32,284 nt of DNA from Syntrophobacterales bacterium. Its GTDB lineage: Bacteria; Desulfobacterota; Syntrophia; Syntrophales; UBA2210. The DNA is taken from the NCBI GenBank assembly GCA_018433345.1, contig JAHDRK010000103.1:1-32284 (forward strand). The letters run 5' to 3'. Each line of letters opens with the position of its first letter. The stretch's first letter is position 1. This document shows, in pieces, positions 4,412 to 30,274 of the stretch. Below the pieces are notes generated by a model. It made no database searches and was not told the DNA's origin. It saw only the letters and a program-made list of their open reading frames with translations. The position numbers and the translations under genes are program-made.

Positions 4412-5653
4412 ATGGGATATGAGTTGCTTGTCAGCATCCGATATCTTCGGGCTAAAAGGAAGCAGACATTCATCTCCGTTAACACGGTGATATCAATCCT
4501 GGGGATTTTTCTGGGCGTGGCGGCTCTCATAATTGTGTTGTCAGTGATGAGCGGTTTCGAAGCGGAACTCCGGAACAAAATCCTGGGTATCAACGCCCAT
4601 GTCACCCTGACGCGGGTCGACGGTCCCATGGAAAATTATCGGGAAGTAATCAGTAAAATTCAAGTCTTGGACCGAGTGATGGCGGTCACGCCATTCATTT
4701 ACGGGCAGGGAATGGTAAAAAAGGGCAACCGCGTATCCGGTGTTGTGCTCCGTGGCTTGGATCCGGAGTCAGCCCCTTCGGTGATAGACCTGGGTACTGT
4801 AACCGAGGGAGCCCTCTCCTTTGAATCCGAAAATGACCTGTCCTCCATCGTGATAGGCAAAGAATTGGCGGAAATTCTCGATGCGCAGTGCGGTAGTGAA
4901 GTGGATATCTTGCTGCCCTTGGGTGTGTCCACGCCCATGGGTACCATGCCGCGCCTCAAGACCTTCCGGGTCGGCGGTATCTTTGAGTCCGGTTTTTATG
5001 AATACGATTCGACCCTTCTCCTTCTTTCCCTCAAAGATTCCCAAGCCTTCCTGAACATGGGGGATTCGGTCTCCGGTGTGGAGATTAAAATAGATTCCAT
5101 TTATCATGCGGAGGAAGTTGCGAGGAGAATCGAGGCCCGTTTAGGTTACCCCTTTTGGGCGCGGACCTGGATGGAGATGAACAAGAATCTTTTCGCGGCA
5201 CTCAAACTGGAACGCACGGTCATGTTTGTCATTCTCAGCCTCATTGTACTGGTGGCGGCATTCAACATTGTCATTACGCTTGTCATGTCGGTCATGGAAA
5301 AAACGGGTGATATCGCGATTCTTAAATCGATGGGCGCCACGAGAGCGAGTATCATGAAAATTTTCATGATCCAGGGTTTCGTTATAGGAGTTCTGGGCGC
5401 ATTGCTGGGTTCCATAGCGGGCGTTCTTGTATCGCTCAATATAGAACCCATAGTTGCATTCCTCGAGAAAGTGTTCGGTATAACGGCTTTGCCTCGCGAT
5501 GTCTATTACCTGAGCACCCTTCCATCTCAGGTCAATTATTACGACGTGGCACTCATCGTTCTGGTAACTCTGGTGCTTTGTTTCGCGGCTTCTATTTATC
5601 CCGCCTGGACGGCGTCGCGCCTGGATCCGGCGGAGGCGCTACGGTACGAGTAG
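4412..5653 (+). CDS. lolC: Lipoprotein-releasing ABC transporter permease (LolC/LolE family)
   Basis: This 413-residue inner-membrane permease extracts mature lipoproteins from the inner membrane and passes them to LolA. Its topology is typical: one N-terminal transmembrane segment (about 26-48, after YLRAKRKQTFISVNTVIS), a large periplasmic domain, and three C-terminal transmembrane segments (about 270-295, 318-345, 375-400). The conserved permease motif KTGDIAILKSMGATRASIM lies between the first two C-terminal segments. Only one permease gene is present, followed five bases after its stop by the lolD region. The transporter may therefore be a homodimer (LolF-like), or a second subunit may be encoded elsewhere. 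LolC versus LolE cannot be decided from this sequence. Confidence 0.93.
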   Translation: MGYELLVSIRYLRAKRKQTFISVNTVISILGIFLGVAALIIVLSVMSGFEAELRNKILGINAHVTLTRVDGPMENYREVISKIQVLDRVMAVTPFIYGQGMVKKGNRVSGVVLRGLDPESAPSVIDLGTVTEGALSFESENDLSSIVIGKELAEILDAQCGSEVDILLPLGVSTPMGTMPRLKTFRVGGIFESGFYEYDSTLLLLSLKDSQAFLNMGDSVSGVEIKIDSIYHAEEVARRIEARLGYPFWARTWMEMNKNLFAALKLERTVMFVILSLIVLVAAFNIVITLVMSVMEKTGDIAILKSMGATRASIMKIFMIQGFVIGVLGALLGSIAGVLVSLNIEPIVAFLEKVFGITALPRDVYYLSTLPSQVNYYDVALIVLVTLVLCFAASIYPAWTASRLDPAEALRYE

Positions 5654-22319: not shown

Positions 22320-22337
22320 GATTTGTGGGCACAAATC
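22320..22337. other. Perfect 8-2-8 inverted repeat at the 3' end of the regulator gene
   Basis: GATTTGTG-GG-CACAAATC is a perfect inverted repeat overlapping the stop codon of the minus-strand regulator, in the gap between two convergent genes. No T-run follows on either strand, so it is not a standard terminator. It may still act as a bidirectional stem-loop or a protein site. Confidence 0.45.
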
Positions 22338-24108
22338 ATATGCCGTATTTTGAAATTTTTCTCCAGAGTGTCACCCTGGAAATCCCCAGTTCTTTTGCCG
22401 CCTGAGTTTGGTTAAATTTGCATCTCCAGAGAGCGTTGATGATGGATTCTTTTTCAGATTCCGCCAAGCTTTCCGAATTATCACCGCCTAGGGTGACACT
22501 ATCAGACACAATTTTAGACAAAGTCGTGGTCCCGGTATTAGACGACTGCGGAAACAATAAATGAACCGGCAGATGTTCAGGAAGAATCACCGAACCAGTT
22601 TTCATGGCCAGTGAATACTCTATTACATTTTCCAGTTCCCTTACATTGCCCGGCCATCGATATTCTAAAAGTATTTTTTGAGTTTCATGGTCCAACTTTA
22701 ATTTCTGATACTTATTCTTTCTTGCGTGTTGATTTATGAAATGGGTGGCTAGTATGAGGATGTCCTCCTTGCGTTCTCGCAAAGGTGGAACGTGCAAAGG
22801 AATGACCGCAATTCGATAATATAAATCCTGTCGAAATAAACCTTGCTTGACAAGACGTATCAAATCCTTGTTGGTAGCGCACAAAAGTCTTACGTCAACA
22901 CGATAAGTTTTGTTACTGCCGATCGGGCGTATTTCCTTTTCTTGAATCGCGTGTAATAGCTTTACCTGTAGGGGGATCGCAAGGTCCCCCACTTCATCTA
23001 GAAACAATGTCCCCCCGTCCGCCGCCCTGAATAATCCAATATTGTCTGAAATTGCACCGCTGAATGAGCCTCGTATATGACCAAATAGCTCTGATTCAAT
23101 GAGGTTTTCGGGAAGCGCGCCGCAATTGATCTGTACAAAAGGTTTATCGCTGCGGGTGCTGTTAGCGTGAATGGCTTCTGCGATCATGTTTTTACCAACA
23201 CCGGTTTCGCCCGTGATAAGTACCGTGGATTCCAATTCGGCACAACGTAAGGCGGTGTTAATGCATTTATGCATGACCGGGGCTGATGAAACTATTCCTG
23301 ACAAAACATTTTTCAGTTTGATTTGACGCTTGAAACATTGAAGTTCCTGTTCTCGGGCCTGCAACTCCACGATGCTGGTAGTGTCCTTTAAAATTTCTAC
23401 GTAGGCAAAGGTATGTCCCAAGTCGTTTTTAATTTCTTCCACGCTTGCTTCAAAATACCTTTGCTTTCTTCCGTCATTCAACGTGACGATTTCGTTTCTA
23501 CAGGCTTTAAGTGGCAGAAGCGGTTCTTGTTTATGGTAAATTTCACGGGCCTGCATGTTTGAAAGGAGATGATTGCCATTGACGTCAAATACCGATACGC
23601 TGTCGCCGATGCCAAACAAGATAGCTTCAAGCTTCATTTTTTCATTTTTCAGTGACTCCTGGTTTTCCCTCAAGGTCTCGTTTGCCTTTATAAGTTCCTG
23701 GTTGGCGGCTTTCAGTTTAGCCCGGATTTGCTTTTGTTCGCTGATGTCAAGGACAAGAACATTTTCCGATACCGGGCGTCCTGTGTCATCCTTGTTTATC
23801 GAAACTATGAATAGGACGGGAATTTTTTCCCCGCTTTTATGGTAGATGAAATATTCGGCCTGGTAATATTCTGAATCGATTTTTAAGAGGTCCCCGTGTC
23901 TTAATGTCTGATATTCCTGTTCAGTGAAGAATTCACTTACGTGATGCCCAATGAGTTCTTTACGCGTCAAACCGTTAATTTTGAGTAGTGCTTTGTTGAC
24001 TTCCAAAATATTGTCATCCATGTCTTGAAGCACAAAGCCGATATTTAGTGCATCCAAAAGTTTTTTAGACTTTTTTATCCAAATGAGATCGCTATGTTGA
24101 TTTGTCAT
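22336..24108 (-). CDS. PAS-domain sigma-54-dependent transcriptional activator (Fis family)
   Basis: This 590-residue enhancer-binding protein has PAS plus PAC (about 15-130), a coiled-coil linker (125-165), and a second PAS (about 160-250). The AAA+ domain (about 270-505) has Walker A GETGVGKN (300-307), a GAFTGA-loop variant GSFSGA (347-352), and Walker B GGTLFLDEVGDL (365-376). A Fis-type helix-turn-helix ends the protein (FNQTQAAKELGISRVTLWRKI, 565-585). It should sense a small ligand through PAS and activate sigma-54 RNA polymerase. No receiver domain is present. I start at the ATG at 24108; ATGs at 24129 and 24198 are in frame but lack better support. It is divergent from the cluster it probably controls. 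Confidence 0.94.
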   Translation of the reverse strand: MTNQHSDLIWIKKSKKLLDALNIGFVLQDMDDNILEVNKALLKINGLTRKELIGHHVSEFFTEQEYQTLRHGDLLKIDSEYYQAEYFIYHKSGEKIPVLFIVSINKDDTGRPVSENVLVLDISEQKQIRAKLKAANQELIKANETLRENQESLKNEKMKLEAILFGIGDSVSVFDVNGNHLLSNMQAREIYHKQEPLLPLKACRNEIVTLNDGRKQRYFEASVEEIKNDLGHTFAYVEILKDTTSIVELQAREQELQCFKRQIKLKNVLSGIVSSAPVMHKCINTALRCAELESTVLITGETGVGKNMIAEAIHANSTRSDKPFVQINCGALPENLIESELFGHIRGSFSGAISDNIGLFRAADGGTLFLDEVGDLAIPLQVKLLHAIQEKEIRPIGSNKTYRVDVRLLCATNKDLIRLVKQGLFRQDLYYRIAVIPLHVPPLRERKEDILILATHFINQHARKNKYQKLKLDHETQKILLEYRWPGNVRELENVIEYSLAMKTGSVILPEHLPVHLLFPQSSNTGTTTLSKIVSDSVTLGGDNSESLAESEKESIINALWRCKFNQTQAAKELGISRVTLWRKISKYGI

Positions 24109-24149
24109 ATCATACCCCACCCTTAGCATATCGTAGCAATCTGAAGCAT

Positions 24150-24167
24150 ATTGTAACACGTTACAAT
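24150..24167. promoter_or_regulatory. Candidate activator-binding palindrome (upstream activating sequence)
   Basis: ATTGTAAC-AC-GTTACAAT is a perfect 8-2-8 inverted repeat lying about 40-60 bases upstream of the regulator's start and about 140-155 bases upstream of the predicted sigma-54 transcription start. That distance is typical for enhancer sites of sigma-54 activators with Fis-type helix-turn-helix domains. A weaker half-site, GTAGCAAT, lies at 24133-24140. Binding by the divergent regulator is inferred. Confidence 0.65.
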
Positions 24168-24278
24168 AGTAAAGACAAATTCTTTGGGGATGCAGCATAG
24201 TTTTTTGATAAAGTTTATTAGTTAATGATTACCAGCAATTACAAAAATATTTTGCCTTTTTAATAAAGTTAAATTTTT

Positions 24279-24294
24279 CGGCACATCGGTTGCA
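24279..24294 (+). promoter_or_regulatory. Sigma-54 (-24/-12) promoter
   Basis: The sequence CGGCACATCGGTTGCA places GG (24280-24281) and GC (24292-24293) with exactly the ten-base interval required by sigma-54, and matches TGGCAC-N5-TTGCA at all but the first base. Transcription should begin near 24305, about 70 bases before the oxidoreductase ATG at 24375. Together with the upstream palindrome and the divergent activator this forms a complete control region. Confidence 0.8.
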
Positions 24295-24374
24295 CAAGAA
24301 AGATTTACGATTGCAACATTTTCTATAATGAAAGGTGCATCCAAGTTCATTCAATAAACTTGTGAGGAGGTTGT

Positions 24375-25568
24375 ATGCGAGTATTGGCATTAGGGGGCGC
24401 GGGAGACATGGGGAGAACAGCGGTCACAACCCTTATTAATTCACCCGGCATAGAAGCAATCACAGTGGCCGATAGGAATTATGAATCGGCTGAAAAGTTT
24501 ATAAATCTAGCCAATACGAAGAAGGCGTCGGCTACTAAGATCGATGTTACTGACCGCCGTCAGCTGATGGATCTGATTTCTCGACATGATCTCGTAATGA
24601 GTTCGGTCGGCCCATATTACAAGTTTGGCCCAAGTATCACAGAGGCGTGTATTGAGGCGGGGAAATCGTGTGCCGACATATGTGATGATTGGAAACCCAT
24701 GTTGAGTGTTTTGTCTATGGATGAAAAAGCAAAGCAGGCGGGAATCACGATAATTCCTGGAATCGGTGCCAGCCCCGGCCTTTCTAATCTCATGGCGGTC
24801 CTTGGCGCTTCCGAACTTGACGAGGTGGATGAAATAGTCACGGCGTGGGGGGCGGGGAAAGCGGTATCAGGACCACCGCAACCTCATCATGTAAAGAAAA
24901 AGTTTCTTGATGAAGCGGGAGTCAGTGGGGAAAATGCCGCCGTTGCACACCTTTTATATGAATGCCTGGAACCCATACCCACGTTTCGAGAGGGCGCAAT
25001 CACCTATATTGAACCTCTTTCAGATGCGGCGCCGATAAGGTTTCCTGGACATGAAGATACGCGTGCATATCACATCGGCCACCCGGAACCAGTCACAATA
25101 CCAAGAGCAGTTAAAGCAAATTCGGTTTCCAATGTAATGTTCTATGGAAAGTCCTTCATTGAACTTTTAAGAAAATTCGTAGGGCAAATTAAACAGGGCG
25201 TATTGTCAATAGAACAAGCGGCACTACAGCTACAACTAGATATGATAACCAATGCCGAAATAATCGGTGCAGAAAGCACAAGTCCTCTGCCTCCAATATG
25301 CGCAACGGTAACAGGCATGAAAAACGGAACAAGGAAAAGAATCGCTGTGGGATTGACACATATTCCCTATGGACAAATGGCAGGAGGCACTGGGGTTCCT
25401 CTCGCGATTGCCATTATGATGCTCGCTGAAGGTAGAATAACTTTAACAGGGGTGCAGCCGCCGGAGTTGGCCATAGAGCCCCGCTACTTCTTGAATAGAT
25501 ATGCGAAATACTGTGGTGAGGGTTTGAGTGTCGACGATGTCTTATTAAAGAAAGAAGATTATCTCTAA
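24375..25568 (+). CDS. Saccharopine dehydrogenase-family NAD(P)-dependent oxidoreductase
   Basis: This 397-residue protein has an N-terminal Rossmann domain (VLALGGAGDMGRTAV, residues 3-17), then DLVMSSVGPYYKFGPSITEACIEAG and GITIIPGIGASPGLSNLMA. These are typical of the saccharopine dehydrogenase/lysine 6-dehydrogenase superfamily. The C-terminal layout, ending with a GVQPPE segment, recalls bacterial lysine 6-dehydrogenase (GVYPPE). The substrate is unknown; an amino or carboxylate substrate with reductive or oxidative chemistry is plausible. GAGGAGG sits just upstream of the ATG. It is the first gene behind the sigma-54 promoter and precedes an acyl-CoA ligase by 94 bases, so the two probably form an inducible catabolic operon. 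Confidence 0.85.
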   Translation: MRVLALGGAGDMGRTAVTTLINSPGIEAITVADRNYESAEKFINLANTKKASATKIDVTDRRQLMDLISRHDLVMSSVGPYYKFGPSITEACIEAGKSCADICDDWKPMLSVLSMDEKAKQAGITIIPGIGASPGLSNLMAVLGASELDEVDEIVTAWGAGKAVSGPPQPHHVKKKFLDEAGVSGENAAVAHLLYECLEPIPTFREGAITYIEPLSDAAPIRFPGHEDTRAYHIGHPEPVTIPRAVKANSVSNVMFYGKSFIELLRKFVGQIKQGVLSIEQAALQLQLDMITNAEIIGAESTSPLPPICATVTGMKNGTRKRIAVGLTHIPYGQMAGGTGVPLAIAIMMLAEGRITLTGVQPPELAIEPRYFLNRYAKYCGEGLSVDDVLLKKEDYL

Positions 25569-25610
25569 AATCATATGTTCGCATAAAGGCATTAGATGTT
25601 CTGCAATTAG

Positions 25611-25644
25611 GTCAGGTGCTGTCCGTCACATAAAAACCTGACGG
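25611..25644 (+). other. Alternative stem-loops between oxidoreductase and ligase genes
   Basis: GTCAGGT (25611-25617) can pair with ACCTGAC (25636-25642). Alternatively CCGTCA (25623-25628) can pair with TGACGG (25639-25644). The two stems share the 3' strand and so exclude each other. They lie just before the ligase ribosome binding site and could affect processing or translation, but no T-run makes this a terminator. Confidence 0.35.
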
Positions 25645-25662
25645 AAAGGAGGAAGGGGGATT

Positions 25663-27210
25663 GTGAATGTCATGAGTCTAGCTTTGAGCTATGCAGCGAA
25701 AGGAGAGGAATATCCAGGATTAATTTTTGAAGGGGAATCATTTACTAACGAAGCTGTCAGCTCTGAAGCAAGGCGATTAGCAGAAGGGCTTAGAAACATA
25801 GGAGTTAATCCCGGCGATATCGTCGCAACAATTTTACCAAATTGCAAAGAAATATTAACAGTTTACGAAGGAGTACTACGTTGTGGAGGCGTATTGTTGC
25901 CGATCATCTTTGCCCTTACGGAGCCAGAAATTACGTACATATTAATGGATTCCGGAGCCGGATACATCATTACCAGCAGGGAACTTCTGGGCAAGATTAA
26001 CAAAACTCTTCGGCACAAGGCAAAAATTGTGGTGATCGATACGGAGGGTGCGACTGAAAACGATTTTATCGACTACCAATCGCTTATAGAAAACTGTCCG
26101 GATAGTGAAAACATTGCCGAGCGAACAGGCGATGACCTCGCAATGGTTATGTACACGTCAGGAACTACCGGCAAACCCAAAGGAGTCATGTTGACTCACG
26201 ACAATTTCTGCGCCTCTTTAGAATGCCCCTTTTACGATGCCTTTAATGCCGAAGGGGCTACCGTTCTTATCACCCTCCCCATGAATCATGTATTTGGACT
26301 GGCTATATGGCTGTATAGTTACTGGAAACACGGTGGGACATTGGTTCTTCACAAATGGTTTGACCCGGCAAAGGCATTGCAAGATATTGCAAGATTCAAA
26401 GTCACTTTAGTTCCGCTTGTTCCAACCATGCTTCTAAGAATTCTCGAAGAGACCGGCAAAGCCGTATACGATACAAGCTCCGTGCAGATCTGGTTTGTTG
26501 CCGGCGCTCCGTTTCCGCCTCATAAAATCAAAGAAGTCGAAGAGCGATTGGGCGGCATTTTTATTCATGATTATGGATTGACAGAAACGACAGGGGATCT
26601 TTGCTGTCAAGATCCCAACGGGATACGCAAGCCCGGATCAGTGGGTAAGCCTATGCCGGGGATGGAAGTTCGAATTGTTGACGATAACGGTAAAGAAGTA
26701 TCCCGTGGGGAATGGGGTGAGATTACCGTTAGAGGGTGGGGCGTTATGAAGGGTTATATAAATCGCCCTGAGGAAACGCATGAAGTCATAAGGGATGGAT
26801 TTTTATACACGGGTGATATTGGATATCTTGACGAAGACGGAGATTTGTTCATTACGGACCGCAAAAAAAACATGATCTTGCGGGGGGGAGAAAACATATA
26901 TCCGCTTGAAATTGAAAATGTCCTTCACAACATATCCGGCATAGCGGAAGCCGTCGTGTTCGGAATTCCTGATCCGGAGTATGGGGAAGAAGTCGTGGCG
27001 TGTGTTGTTTTGGATGAGGGGTGTTCAATAACGCAAGAGGCCATTGCTTCCGAATGCCTGAAATATATTCCAAGGTATAAGTGCCCCAAACAGATCGCCT
27101 TTGTCAAAGAACTGCCCAAAACTCAAACAGGGAAGTTTGACAAAAAAGTTCTTCTTGCAAACGCCGGTGTCCTGTTTGGTGCGAAGAGTTCCCAAGTAAC
27201 CCGGATGTAA
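25663..27210 (+). CDS. AMP-forming acyl-CoA synthetase/ligase
   Basis: This 515-residue adenylate-forming enzyme activates a carboxylic acid with ATP and links it to CoA. Visible motifs are the phosphate-binding loop YTSGTTGKPKG (164-174), YGLTETTG (304-311), TGD with Asp384, the hinge DRKKNMILRGGENIYPLEIE (399-418), and the C-terminal catalytic Lys491 in KTQTGKF. Length and motifs fit medium- or long-chain fatty-acid or aromatic-acid ligases; the substrate cannot be told. AAGGAGG precedes the GTG start at proper spacing; an ATG at 25672 is an alternative. It sits downstream of the saccharopine dehydrogenase-like gene, and the IS element begins 75 bases after its stop. Confidence 0.93.
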   Translation: MNVMSLALSYAAKGEEYPGLIFEGESFTNEAVSSEARRLAEGLRNIGVNPGDIVATILPNCKEILTVYEGVLRCGGVLLPIIFALTEPEITYILMDSGAGYIITSRELLGKINKTLRHKAKIVVIDTEGATENDFIDYQSLIENCPDSENIAERTGDDLAMVMYTSGTTGKPKGVMLTHDNFCASLECPFYDAFNAEGATVLITLPMNHVFGLAIWLYSYWKHGGTLVLHKWFDPAKALQDIARFKVTLVPLVPTMLLRILEETGKAVYDTSSVQIWFVAGAPFPPHKIKEVEERLGGIFIHDYGLTETTGDLCCQDPNGIRKPGSVGKPMPGMEVRIVDDNGKEVSRGEWGEITVRGWGVMKGYINRPEETHEVIRDGFLYTGDIGYLDEDGDLFITDRKKNMILRGGENIYPLEIENVLHNISGIAEAVVFGIPDPEYGEEVVACVVLDEGCSITQEAIASECLKYIPRYKCPKQIAFVKELPKTQTGKFDKKVLLANAGVLFGAKSSQVTRM

Positions 27211-27285
27211 CAGCTAAAAACCCCCTCCTTATTATAATTTTGCAGCGGTAGCGAGGTAGGGATTCATGGGGTGGTGTTCGGAACG

Positions 27286-27309
27286 TGTCAATGAAAATGA
27301 GACACTGCC
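27286..27309 (+). repeat. IS3 element left terminal inverted repeat
   Basis: This end begins TGTCAATG and contains TGAGACACT at 27298-27306. It matches the reverse complement of 28879-28902 at 18 of 24 positions. It lies just after the orfB stop. Confidence 0.82.
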
Positions 27310-27318
27310 ATCAACAAT

Positions 27319-28329
27319 TTAGTGTATCACCGACTCACTTTCATTCGGTGACGGTTTGTTAATCCAAACGGCCTTTGGCAATGCCATCGGCTTCGGAACC
27401 TTTCCCTTAAACCGATTCGGATATTTTTCAAAGGCCGCTTTCAACACCGTTTCACGCTCTTTGATAATCTGCTGAGCCCGTCCATAATGGACATCTTCCG
27501 GCGTCAGGTATCCAATACCGGAATGATAATGCTCCGTGTTATACCAAGTGAAAAATACCTGACAAAAGGACCTGGAATCTTGAAGACATCCGAACCGTCC
27601 AGGAAAATCAGGCCGATATTTCATGGTCTTAAACTGTGCTTCCGAATAGGGATTATCGTTGCTCACATACGGACGTGAATGACTCTTGGTAACCCCCAGA
27701 TCCGCCAGTAATAATGCTACCGGCTTCGATGTCATGCTGGGACCGCGATCGGCATGAATGATCAACTGATCCTGTTCAATACCCTGTTTCTCACTGCTCT
27801 GTTCGATCAGTTTTTTGGCCAGTGCAGATTTCTCACGGGTGGCTACCATCCAGCCAACAACATACCGGCTGAAGATATCAAGGATGACGTAGAGATAATA
27901 GTAGGTCCACTTCACCGGTCCCTTGAGCTTCGTTATGTCCCATGACCATACCCGATTGGGTGCTGTTGCCAGGAGCTCCGGCTTTTTATAGAAGGGATGG
28001 CGCAGTTGGTTTCTCCGTTCCCGCACTTCTCGATTCTCTTCCAGGATGCGGTACATGGTCCGTACCGAACACAGATAATGTCCGTCATCAAGCAGGGCCG
28101 CATAAACCTCGCGTGGCGCCTGATCGACAAACCGCTCGTCATGAAGGATATCCAGCACATCGCGTCGTTCGTTATCCGTCAGTGCTAACGGTGACACAGG
28201 ACGGCAGTGATCATGCGTCGAGGTTCTGTCTCTATCACGCCATCGGTAAAAGCTGGCTCGCGGAAGAGCCAGGGCATCTCAGGCGCTCTTTACCCCCACG
28301 TCTTTTGCTAATGATCCTGCCCTATTCAT
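27319..28329 (-). pseudogene. IS3-family transposase orfB, interrupted by an in-frame TGA
   Basis: The frame opens with an ATG at 28329 that overlaps the orfA stop (ATGA), as expected for coupled orfB translation. It would give 336 residues, but codon 17 (28281-28279) is TGA. The context KSA-stop-DALALPRASFYR suggests the ancestral codon was Cys, Trp or Arg. Downstream the frame is open for 292 codons from a GTG at 28197 and keeps the DDE integrase core: Asp in WSWDITK, Asp in IIHADRG, Glu in NPYSEAQFK, with 35 residues between the last two. A perfect 7-base hairpin (28253-28272) follows the TGA closely. It is probably a decayed copy; a truncated GTG-initiated protein or readthrough is possible. 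Confidence 0.78.
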
Positions 28330-28832
28330 GAGTTCTTCTCTCCGCTTTCCGCGAGAGGTATCTGCAGGATCTCGGATACTTTTTTTTGGACGTCGATAAT
28401 GGTTTCCGCCTGCTTGAGTTTCTTTTGCAATCGCTCATTTTCCCGTTCAAGTTCGGCGATACGACGGGCTGATGGGTCAGGCTCTTGTGCCTTGCGTCCT
28501 CTCTTCTTGGGAGACAGAGCTTCCAGCGTCCCATGCTCCCACTGGCGTCTCCACGTAACCAGATTGGATGAATACAGGCCTTCTCGACGCAACAGGGCAC
28601 CAATCTGACCGTGTTCCCTGCACCGTTCCGCTTCAGTGAGAATCCGAAGCTTATATGCTGCCGTGAATCGGCGGCGAACCCCTTTCTCTCGAACCTCGGG
28701 ATCGGGAATGGCACTGATAGCCTGAACGTTTTCTGTCTTGTAGATGGAGGAAATTCCAGTCGCCCTACGGACTCCTTCCATTTCCTCCATCCTGTTGCTA
28801 ATCCGAGCTTCCATATGTTCTTTCTCTAACAT
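28326..28832 (-). CDS. IS3-family transposase orfA
   Basis: This 168-residue DNA-binding subunit of the transposase has a basic helix-turn-helix region in RRRFTAAYKLRILTEAERC through LLRREGLYSSNLVTWRRQW (about 53-95). A coiled-coil or leucine-zipper segment follows (ARRIAELERENERLQKKLKQ, about 122-141), used for multimerisation with OrfB. GGAGG precedes the ATG. Its TGA overlaps the orfB ATG, so the element appears to use start-stop coupling rather than an A-rich frameshift site. Confidence 0.9.
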   Translation of the reverse strand: MLEKEHMEARISNRMEEMEGVRRATGISSIYKTENVQAISAIPDPEVREKGVRRRFTAAYKLRILTEAERCREHGQIGALLRREGLYSSNLVTWRRQWEHGTLEALSPKKRGRKAQEPDPSARRIAELERENERLQKKLKQAETIIDVQKKVSEILQIPLAESGEKNS

Positions 28833-28878
28833 CTTGCTTCTCCTCCCCCACCCTCTATATACTCTAATTTATGGGTTG

Positions 28879-28902
28879 GGAAGTGTCTCACTTATACTGG
28901 CA
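28879..28902 (-). repeat. IS3 element right terminal inverted repeat
   Basis: This is the reverse-complement partner of the left end, with AGTGTCTCA at 28882-28890 and outer end TGGCA. A TATACT within it (28893-28898) could act as an outward -10 box toward the MFS gene, but no good -35 box accompanies it. Confidence 0.82.
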
Positions 28903-28978
28903 CAGAGGGGTTTTTTGTATACGAACTTACATAACCGTACGTGTTGTTTACGTATGTAGTCTCTCAGGAGCTAATAAA

Positions 28979-30274
28979 ATGCCTTTAACAACAAGAATAA
29001 ATGCTTTGAAAGAAGAAAAAATGACTCAGATCAGATGGCAAATACCTGTAGTCCTCATGATCTCGATACTGGTTTCTTATTTTGATCGGATGAATATTTC
29101 TTTTGCTCTTCCCATGATAGCTAAAGATTATGGTTGGACAGTAGCTGAAACAGGAAAGTACGGTGGTTTACTGATGAGTGTATTTTTTGTGGGGTACGGT
29201 ATTTCCACGATATTTATGAGTCCGATAGGTGAGAGGTTCGGGGCGAAGAAAAGTATAATTGCCGTGGTTATTCTCTTCTCACTAGTGACCTGTCTCCAGG
29301 CTCCTGTCGGAATGATGCTGACATTATTTGTGGCAGTTCGTGTTTTGCTTGGGCTGGTTTCCGGAATTCATGGCCCGATGAATGGTGTTCTGACTGAAAG
29401 ATGGTTTCCAATAAATGAACGTTCCAGAGCCAACAGCATCTGGTTTTGTGGAATTTTTGCGGCCATGATATTGGCGCCCCTCGTGGTTGTACCTTTGTGC
29501 GAATTTCTTGGGTGGAAAATGATGTTTGTAGTTATTGGACTAGGCGGCATGATCATTACCGTGCCGTTACTAAAATTCTTTGTCTATGAAGAGCCGGAAG
29601 ATCATCCTAAAATTTCAGTGTCCGAGATAGATTACATTCAAAAGGGACGGATAGTTGATACTGAAAAGGAAACCGCTCTCAGTTTGATGAGCACTGTTAA
29701 AGTCCTAGGGCGTCAGAGAATATTCTGGTTGGTTATCGCTATAGGAATAATAAATAACATGATTGCTTTTGGCCTTGTAAGCTGGATGCCGACATTTTTT
29801 ACAGAAGGACGAAAATTGGAGTTCAGCAATTTAGTTTATGCGACTTCAGTGCCGTACATTCTAAGCATTGTGGGGGCTCTCACGTGGGCGTACCTTGGAG
29901 ACAAAACAAACAAAAGAGGGTTCTTGTCAAGTCTTGCCTTTTTAGGCTCCGGAATAATGATATGCTTAGCCGCTTCCACCTCTTTCATTCCGCTGATCAT
30001 CTTCTACTTTGCCGCCATGATATTTTTTAGTGCTGCTTATAACGCCAATGAAATCGCTTTTGTTCAGCGGATTGTTCCCAGCGAAAGAACAGGTACCGGT
30101 ATCGGAATTTATCTCGGGCTTTCAATGATGCTGGGAGGCGGATTGGGACCAATTCTGGTAGGTGGTGCCGTTTCTATCTCGGGAAGTTATAGTTATGGGA
30201 TTGGGTCTCTTTCTGTACTCTGCTTCGGATGCTCGTTTCTGGCATTCTTTCTCGGACGCAAGCTGGCATATTGA
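28979..30274 (+). CDS. MFS transporter (anion:cation symporter-like)
   Basis: This 431-residue permease has about twelve hydrophobic segments. The first (after MTQIRW, about 18-35) is followed by YFDRMNISFALPMIAKDYGW, and the loop 2-3 major-facilitator motif appears as GERFGAKKS. The style fits the ACS family, which imports organic anions. CAGGAG lies seven bases before the ATG at 28979. The frame remains open upstream to 28871 inside the IS element, but that extension (MGWEVSHLYWH...) is not credible. It probably imports the substrate of the dehydrogenase/ligase cluster upstream. The IS element now separates it from the sigma-54 promoter. Confidence 0.92.
   Translation: MPLTTRINALKEEKMTQIRWQIPVVLMISILVSYFDRMNISFALPMIAKDYGWTVAETGKYGGLLMSVFFVGYGISTIFMSPIGERFGAKKSIIAVVILFSLVTCLQAPVGMMLTLFVAVRVLLGLVSGIHGPMNGVLTERWFPINERSRANSIWFCGIFAAMILAPLVVVPLCEFLGWKMMFVVIGLGGMIITVPLLKFFVYEEPEDHPKISVSEIDYIQKGRIVDTEKETALSLMSTVKVLGRQRIFWLVIAIGIINNMIAFGLVSWMPTFFTEGRKLEFSNLVYATSVPYILSIVGALTWAYLGDKTNKRGFLSSLAFLGSGIMICLAASTSFIPLIIFYFAAMIFFSAAYNANEIAFVQRIVPSERTGTGIGIYLGLSMMLGGGLGPILVGGAVSISGSYSYGIGSLSVLCFGCSFLAFFLGRKLAY

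Follow-up and report, generated by a model that had tools for sequence, protein, structure and literature searches.

We consider it quite likely that the window (the whole 32,284-nucleotide stretch of DNA that was analysed) encodes an ordinary one-component sigma-54 switch, in which a divergent activator drives an operon for a saccharopine-dehydrogenase-like (SDH-like) oxidoreductase and a CoA ligase. The promoter layout of this switch is kept in a relative that lacks the perfect palindrome of the window's control region; as such, we read the locus as a standard switch for which the activator-binding site is a candidate only. The relative (JAGPFA010000017.1, from a Syntrophaceae metagenome-assembled genome [MAG]; L054 below) was found by scanning GTDB genomes with an alignment of the SDH-like protein. 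It keeps the order and orientation of the activator, SDH-like, CoA ligase, and MFS genes, including their divergent layout.

Organization of the locus

The features of the locus, with the basis of each assignment and the identity to L054 in parentheses, are as follows.

22336–24108, minus strand: divergent sigma-54 activator gene, 590 aa, with PAS, possible second PAS, AAA+, and Fis-type HTH domains (Pfam, translation; 69%)
24115–24122, minus strand: ribosome-binding site (RBS) of the activator gene, GGGTGGGG (sequence)
24149–24168, no strand: perfect 9-2-9 palindrome, a candidate activator site whose left arm holds the −10 box of the activator gene (sequence)
24150–24178, minus strand: predicted sigma-70 promoter of the activator gene (promoter scan and L054 equivalent)
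24279–24294, plus strand: predicted sigma-54 −24/−12 promoter, CGGCAC-ATCGG-TTGCA (genome pattern scan and conservation in L054)
24364–24370, plus strand: RBS of the SDH-like gene, GAGGAGG (sequence)
24375–25568, plus strand: first operon gene, for the SDH-like oxidoreductase, 397 aa (Pfam Sacchrp_dh_NADP and Sacchrp_dh_C; 63%)
25663–27210, plus strand: AMP-forming acyl-CoA ligase, 515 aa (Pfam; 74%)
27285–28903, minus strand: IS3-type insertion sequence between the CoA ligase and MFS genes, with orfA at 28326–28832 and orfB at 27319–28197 (Pfam rve and HTH_Tnp_1; repeats)
29021–30274, plus strand: MFS transporter gene, which followed in the original operon (Pfam; 75%; start taken from the ortholog)

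A −24/−12 promoter conserved within a diverged spacer

The element at 24279–24294 (CGGCACATCGGTTGCA) departs from TGGCACGN4TTGCW at two positions but has an intact GG-N10-GC core, in agreement with the correct spacing attributed to it in a preliminary description of this DNA, and it predicts a transcription start at about 24304–24306. The exact pattern YGGCAC-N5-TTGCW occurs five times in the 2.13-Mb genome, one of the five being this site, and the probability of such an element arising by chance on the plus strand of the spacer is about 0.005. The spacers of the window and L054 are mostly diverged, but that of L054 retains the element (aligned pattern TTTTCGGCAC.....TTGC.CAAGA) at nearly the same distance from the start of the activator gene (170 nt in the window versus 171 nt in L054). 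The best 25-base ungapped match between the two spacers is in fact the promoter (TTTTCGGCACATCGGTTGCACAAGA in the window, TTTTCGGCACGACCATTGCTCAAGA in L054), with 20 of 25 bases identical, compared to 19 for the best of 60 shuffles. Such retention of both sequence and position within a diverged spacer is strong footprint evidence for the promoter and supports a functioning sigma-54 promoter at this site, as judged from sequence comparison.

The genome carries one rpoN (Sigma54_DBD match, E 1e-64), as well as eleven full sigma-54 activator domains and three further, weak matches. With the promoter and layout conserved in the ortholog and rpoN present, there is good support for the earlier proposal that the divergent activator exerts sigma-54 control, and we infer that transcription of the operon is sigma-54 dependent in the cell. 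Transcription by the housekeeping polymerase, with an accidental −24/−12 match, would account for two genome statistics: counted by mismatches, such sites are as frequent in the window as chance predicts (four seen versus 3.7 expected, unremarkable on that measure), and the pattern with one mismatch is no commoner genome-wide than its reversed control. We nevertheless regard it as very unlikely, in that the promoter scan detected no sigma-70-type site on the plus strand between 24130 and 24375, and the element, beside an activator gene, keeps its position although the spacer around it has diverged.

The activator and its own promoter

The activator gene is taken to start at 24108, where GGGTGGGG lies six bases upstream and the start agrees with that of the ortholog; a 620-aa reading frame starting at 24198 was rejected in favor of this RBS-preceded, ortholog-matching start. 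Residues 24 to 123 form a clear PAS domain (Pfam), the AAA+ domain matches Sigma54_activat with an E value of 3e-66 (its lid is also clear), and a Fis-type HTH is present at the C terminus (HTH_8, E 1.5e-15). Of the PAS-PAS-AAA+-Fis architecture given in the preliminary description, the first PAS, AAA+, and Fis-type HTH domains stand, whereas the second PAS corresponds to a match below the cutoff (PAS_9, E 0.03), which leaves a PAS-PAS arrangement plausible; an AlphaFold model of the protein was too poor to help (mean pLDDT 37). The loop that contacts sigma-54 reads GSFSGA rather than GAFTGA, a conservative variant that occurs also in the L054 ortholog and in L011, another activator of the window's genome. 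The Walker A motif of sigma-54 activators usually has E at a position where this protein has N (GETGVGKN, residues 300 to 307, ending in GKN), and the ortholog is identical there. The variant loop and the GKN ending both count against the proposed switch, and both recur in the ortholog. On two grounds, the PAS domain and the absence of a receiver domain, control may be ligand inducible.

The predicted sigma-70 promoter of the activator gene comprises a −35 box (TTGTCT, 24178–24173), a 17-bp gap, and a −10 box (TACAAT, 24155–24150) with an extended TG at 24158–24157. Its equivalent in L054 is TTGCTT-17-TACATT, again with an extended TG (extended −10 letters TGTTACAAT in the window and TGATACATT in L054), and the distance from this promoter to the activator start codon is 70 nt in the window versus 72 nt in L054. 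Of the similarities upstream, one is in register with both promoters (TGAAGCATATTGTAACACG versus TGAAACACAATGTATCAGG), its minus strand holding the activator −10 box. In simulations, such a sigma-70 site arose in 4% and 1% of spacers taken singly, but at the same place in both spacers in none of 20,000 pairs.

The palindrome as a candidate activator site

The palindrome, originally given as a perfect 8-2-8 at 24150–24167, is real but one pair longer: a perfect 9-2-9 at 24149–24168 (TATTGTAAC-AC-GTTACAATA; arms of 9, loop of 2). It spans about −137 to −156 relative to the predicted +1, as anticipated when it was placed some 140 to 155 bases before the start, and its center, at about −146, falls within the 100 to 250 bp upstream of the promoter where most activator sites of Clostridiales lie (PMC6615313). 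Chance statistics are suggestive but not decisive. In 266 bp of the same composition, a palindrome with arms of at least 9 and a loop of at most 6 has a probability of about 0.015, and one with a loop of exactly 2 has a probability of 0.0017; across the 32-kb window, two perfect palindromes with arms of at least 9 were seen versus 0.75 expected, the other being a perfect 10-0-10 (5351–5370, ATCATGAAAATTTTCATGAT) inside the coding ORF 4412–5653. A genome search for further copies, as had been proposed, returned none with up to three mismatches, and a text search of the literature for the half-sites TTGTAAC/GTTACAA together with enhancer-binding proteins returned nothing relevant among the papers listed. 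Scans of the spacer detected neither TGT-N9-13-ACA sites (the palindrome itself has TGT-N8-ACA) nor an exact IHF site.

Conservation of the palindrome could be assessed against a single ortholog (two sequences compared), and here the L054 spacer lacks an equivalent: the closest sequence in it differs at 8 of 18 positions, which 88% of shuffles equal, despite the identical HTH core (AAKELGISRVTLWRK) of the two activators. The half of the palindrome that is conserved is explained without an enhancer, because the sigma-70 −10 box of the activator gene occupies the left arm. Footprinting therefore lends no support to the palindrome as the activator's enhancer, and to call the control region “complete,” as the preliminary description did, was an overstatement.

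These observations bear directly on whether the sigma-54 promoter and activator are correctly identified but the activator does not bind the palindrome, the symmetry of which would be accidental or serve another repressor, the activator itself binding a weaker, unrecognized site in the spacer or within its own gene. The mismatched L054 spacer, the −10 box that accounts for the conserved part, and the occurrence of a similar palindrome within coding sequence all favor such an arrangement, but the low probability of a palindrome of this kind in the spacer (about 0.002 to 0.015), its customary distance from the promoter, and the lack of a better candidate in the scan count against it, and we judge the chances to be about even. 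Positions 24149–24168 are the best single candidate for the activator-binding site, and the data fit either an accidental dyad or a lineage-specific enhancer/operator.

The palindrome may bind the activator as a candidate enhancer and autorepression site: any protein bound to the whole of it would cover the promoter of the activator gene, and the activator, if bound there, would thus also repress its own gene. That one dyad does both jobs, acting at about −146 as the enhancer of the operon and as an autorepression operator covering the activator gene's extended −10, is a possibility that we hold tentatively. If true, a single site would lock regulator and operon together, having arisen recently in the lineage atop an older sigma-70 promoter.

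Proposed mechanism and output genes

In the one-component switch that we propose, the activator gene (22336–24108, minus strand) would be expressed from its own sigma-70 promoter (24178–24150), and the protein would be activated by a signal sensed through its PAS region, presumably an organic acid or the corresponding CoA thioester. The activator would then reach sigma-54 RNA polymerase at 24279–24294 by DNA looping, and transcription of the SDH-like/CoA-ligase operon (originally also including the MFS gene) would start near 24305. Judging from their families, the SDH-like, CoA ligase, and MFS proteins probably serve to take up an organic acid and activate it with CoA.

The regulated unit was first described as an SDH-like/CoA-ligase cluster, but it is larger than that: in L054 it includes the MFS gene, located 36 bases after the CoA ligase gene with no insertion between them. 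In the window, the IS3-type element (imperfect 25-nt terminal inverted repeats; a single copy in the assembled genome) separates the two genes, so the sigma-54 promoter may no longer drive the transporter gene. The region from activator to MFS gene (22336–30274) forms a low-GC island (43 to 47%, versus 53 to 54% in the flanks), whereas the GC content of the L054 island is 50 to 52%. The whole unit was probably acquired horizontally. A same-genus genome that has the neighboring cardiolipin-synthase block carries other genes at this place (TRAP-transporter-like by eye). The island adjoins a block of lipid A/heptose core genes, and no Rfam families were detected in the window.

Distribution of the unit

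Searches of the order and class recovered the activator in two genomes (the window genome and L054) among the 155 of the order, and a search by HTH alone returned the same two; it was not found among genome contigs (single-protein patterns), viral contigs, or plasmids. With the activator in so few genomes, no multi-species motif could be built, and the motif comparison is between two sequences, from the window and the one ortholog of the whole unit.

After L054, the next best relatives of the SDH-like protein are from Asgard archaea, mostly Lokiarchaeota (43 to 51% identity; L055 to L062), and bacterial relatives outside the Syntrophaceae MAG are more distant (about 37%), which suggests, at the level of protein sequence, a cross-domain transfer of this gene. 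The Asgard loci have no matching CoA ligase alongside. A sigma-54 promoter as a trait of the SDH-like family was rejected: none of about 105 other SDH-like loci has an upstream −24/−12 element with two or fewer mismatches. Two distant SDH-like paralogs (30%; L024 and L040, in the same-genus genomes G004 and G001) adjoin and converge with another sigma-54 activator gene.

Comparison with known systems

The locus belongs to the known divergent one-component sigma-54 regulons, and its mechanism is not new. One-component activators beside a single target operon with a −24/−12 promoter are the common form in Clostridiales, and the PAS-type regulons there, like the present locus, pair a PAS-AAA+-Fis activator with one adjoining −24/−12 operon (PMC6615313). 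The sites differ: those of Clostridiales are backed by several orthologs and are often multiple or of the form TGT-N10-12-ACA (PMC6615313), whereas here there is one nonconserved palindrome. Single-component regulons of Desulfovibrio vulgaris likewise have activator genes divergent from the sigma-54 promoter, but their target genes differ from those described here (PMC4641369). The loops GSFTGA and GAFSGA, with one substitution each, are both listed as compatible with function in Desulfovibrio (PMC4641369), and GSFSGA carries both substitutions. Gene content is a further distinction, since the combination of SDH-like oxidoreductase, CoA ligase, and MFS transporter is absent from the published table of such operons (Table 1 of PMC6615313).

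The closest counterpart is L054, which shares the orthologous activator, the SDH-like, CoA ligase, and MFS genes, and both promoters at the same places, but is without the perfect palindrome, the insertion sequence, and the low GC content of the window's island. The locus thereby adds one footprint-supported sigma-54 regulon in Syntrophales-related bacteria, and it illustrates that even one ortholog can part the solid elements of a control region (here, both promoters) from an eye-catching candidate palindrome.
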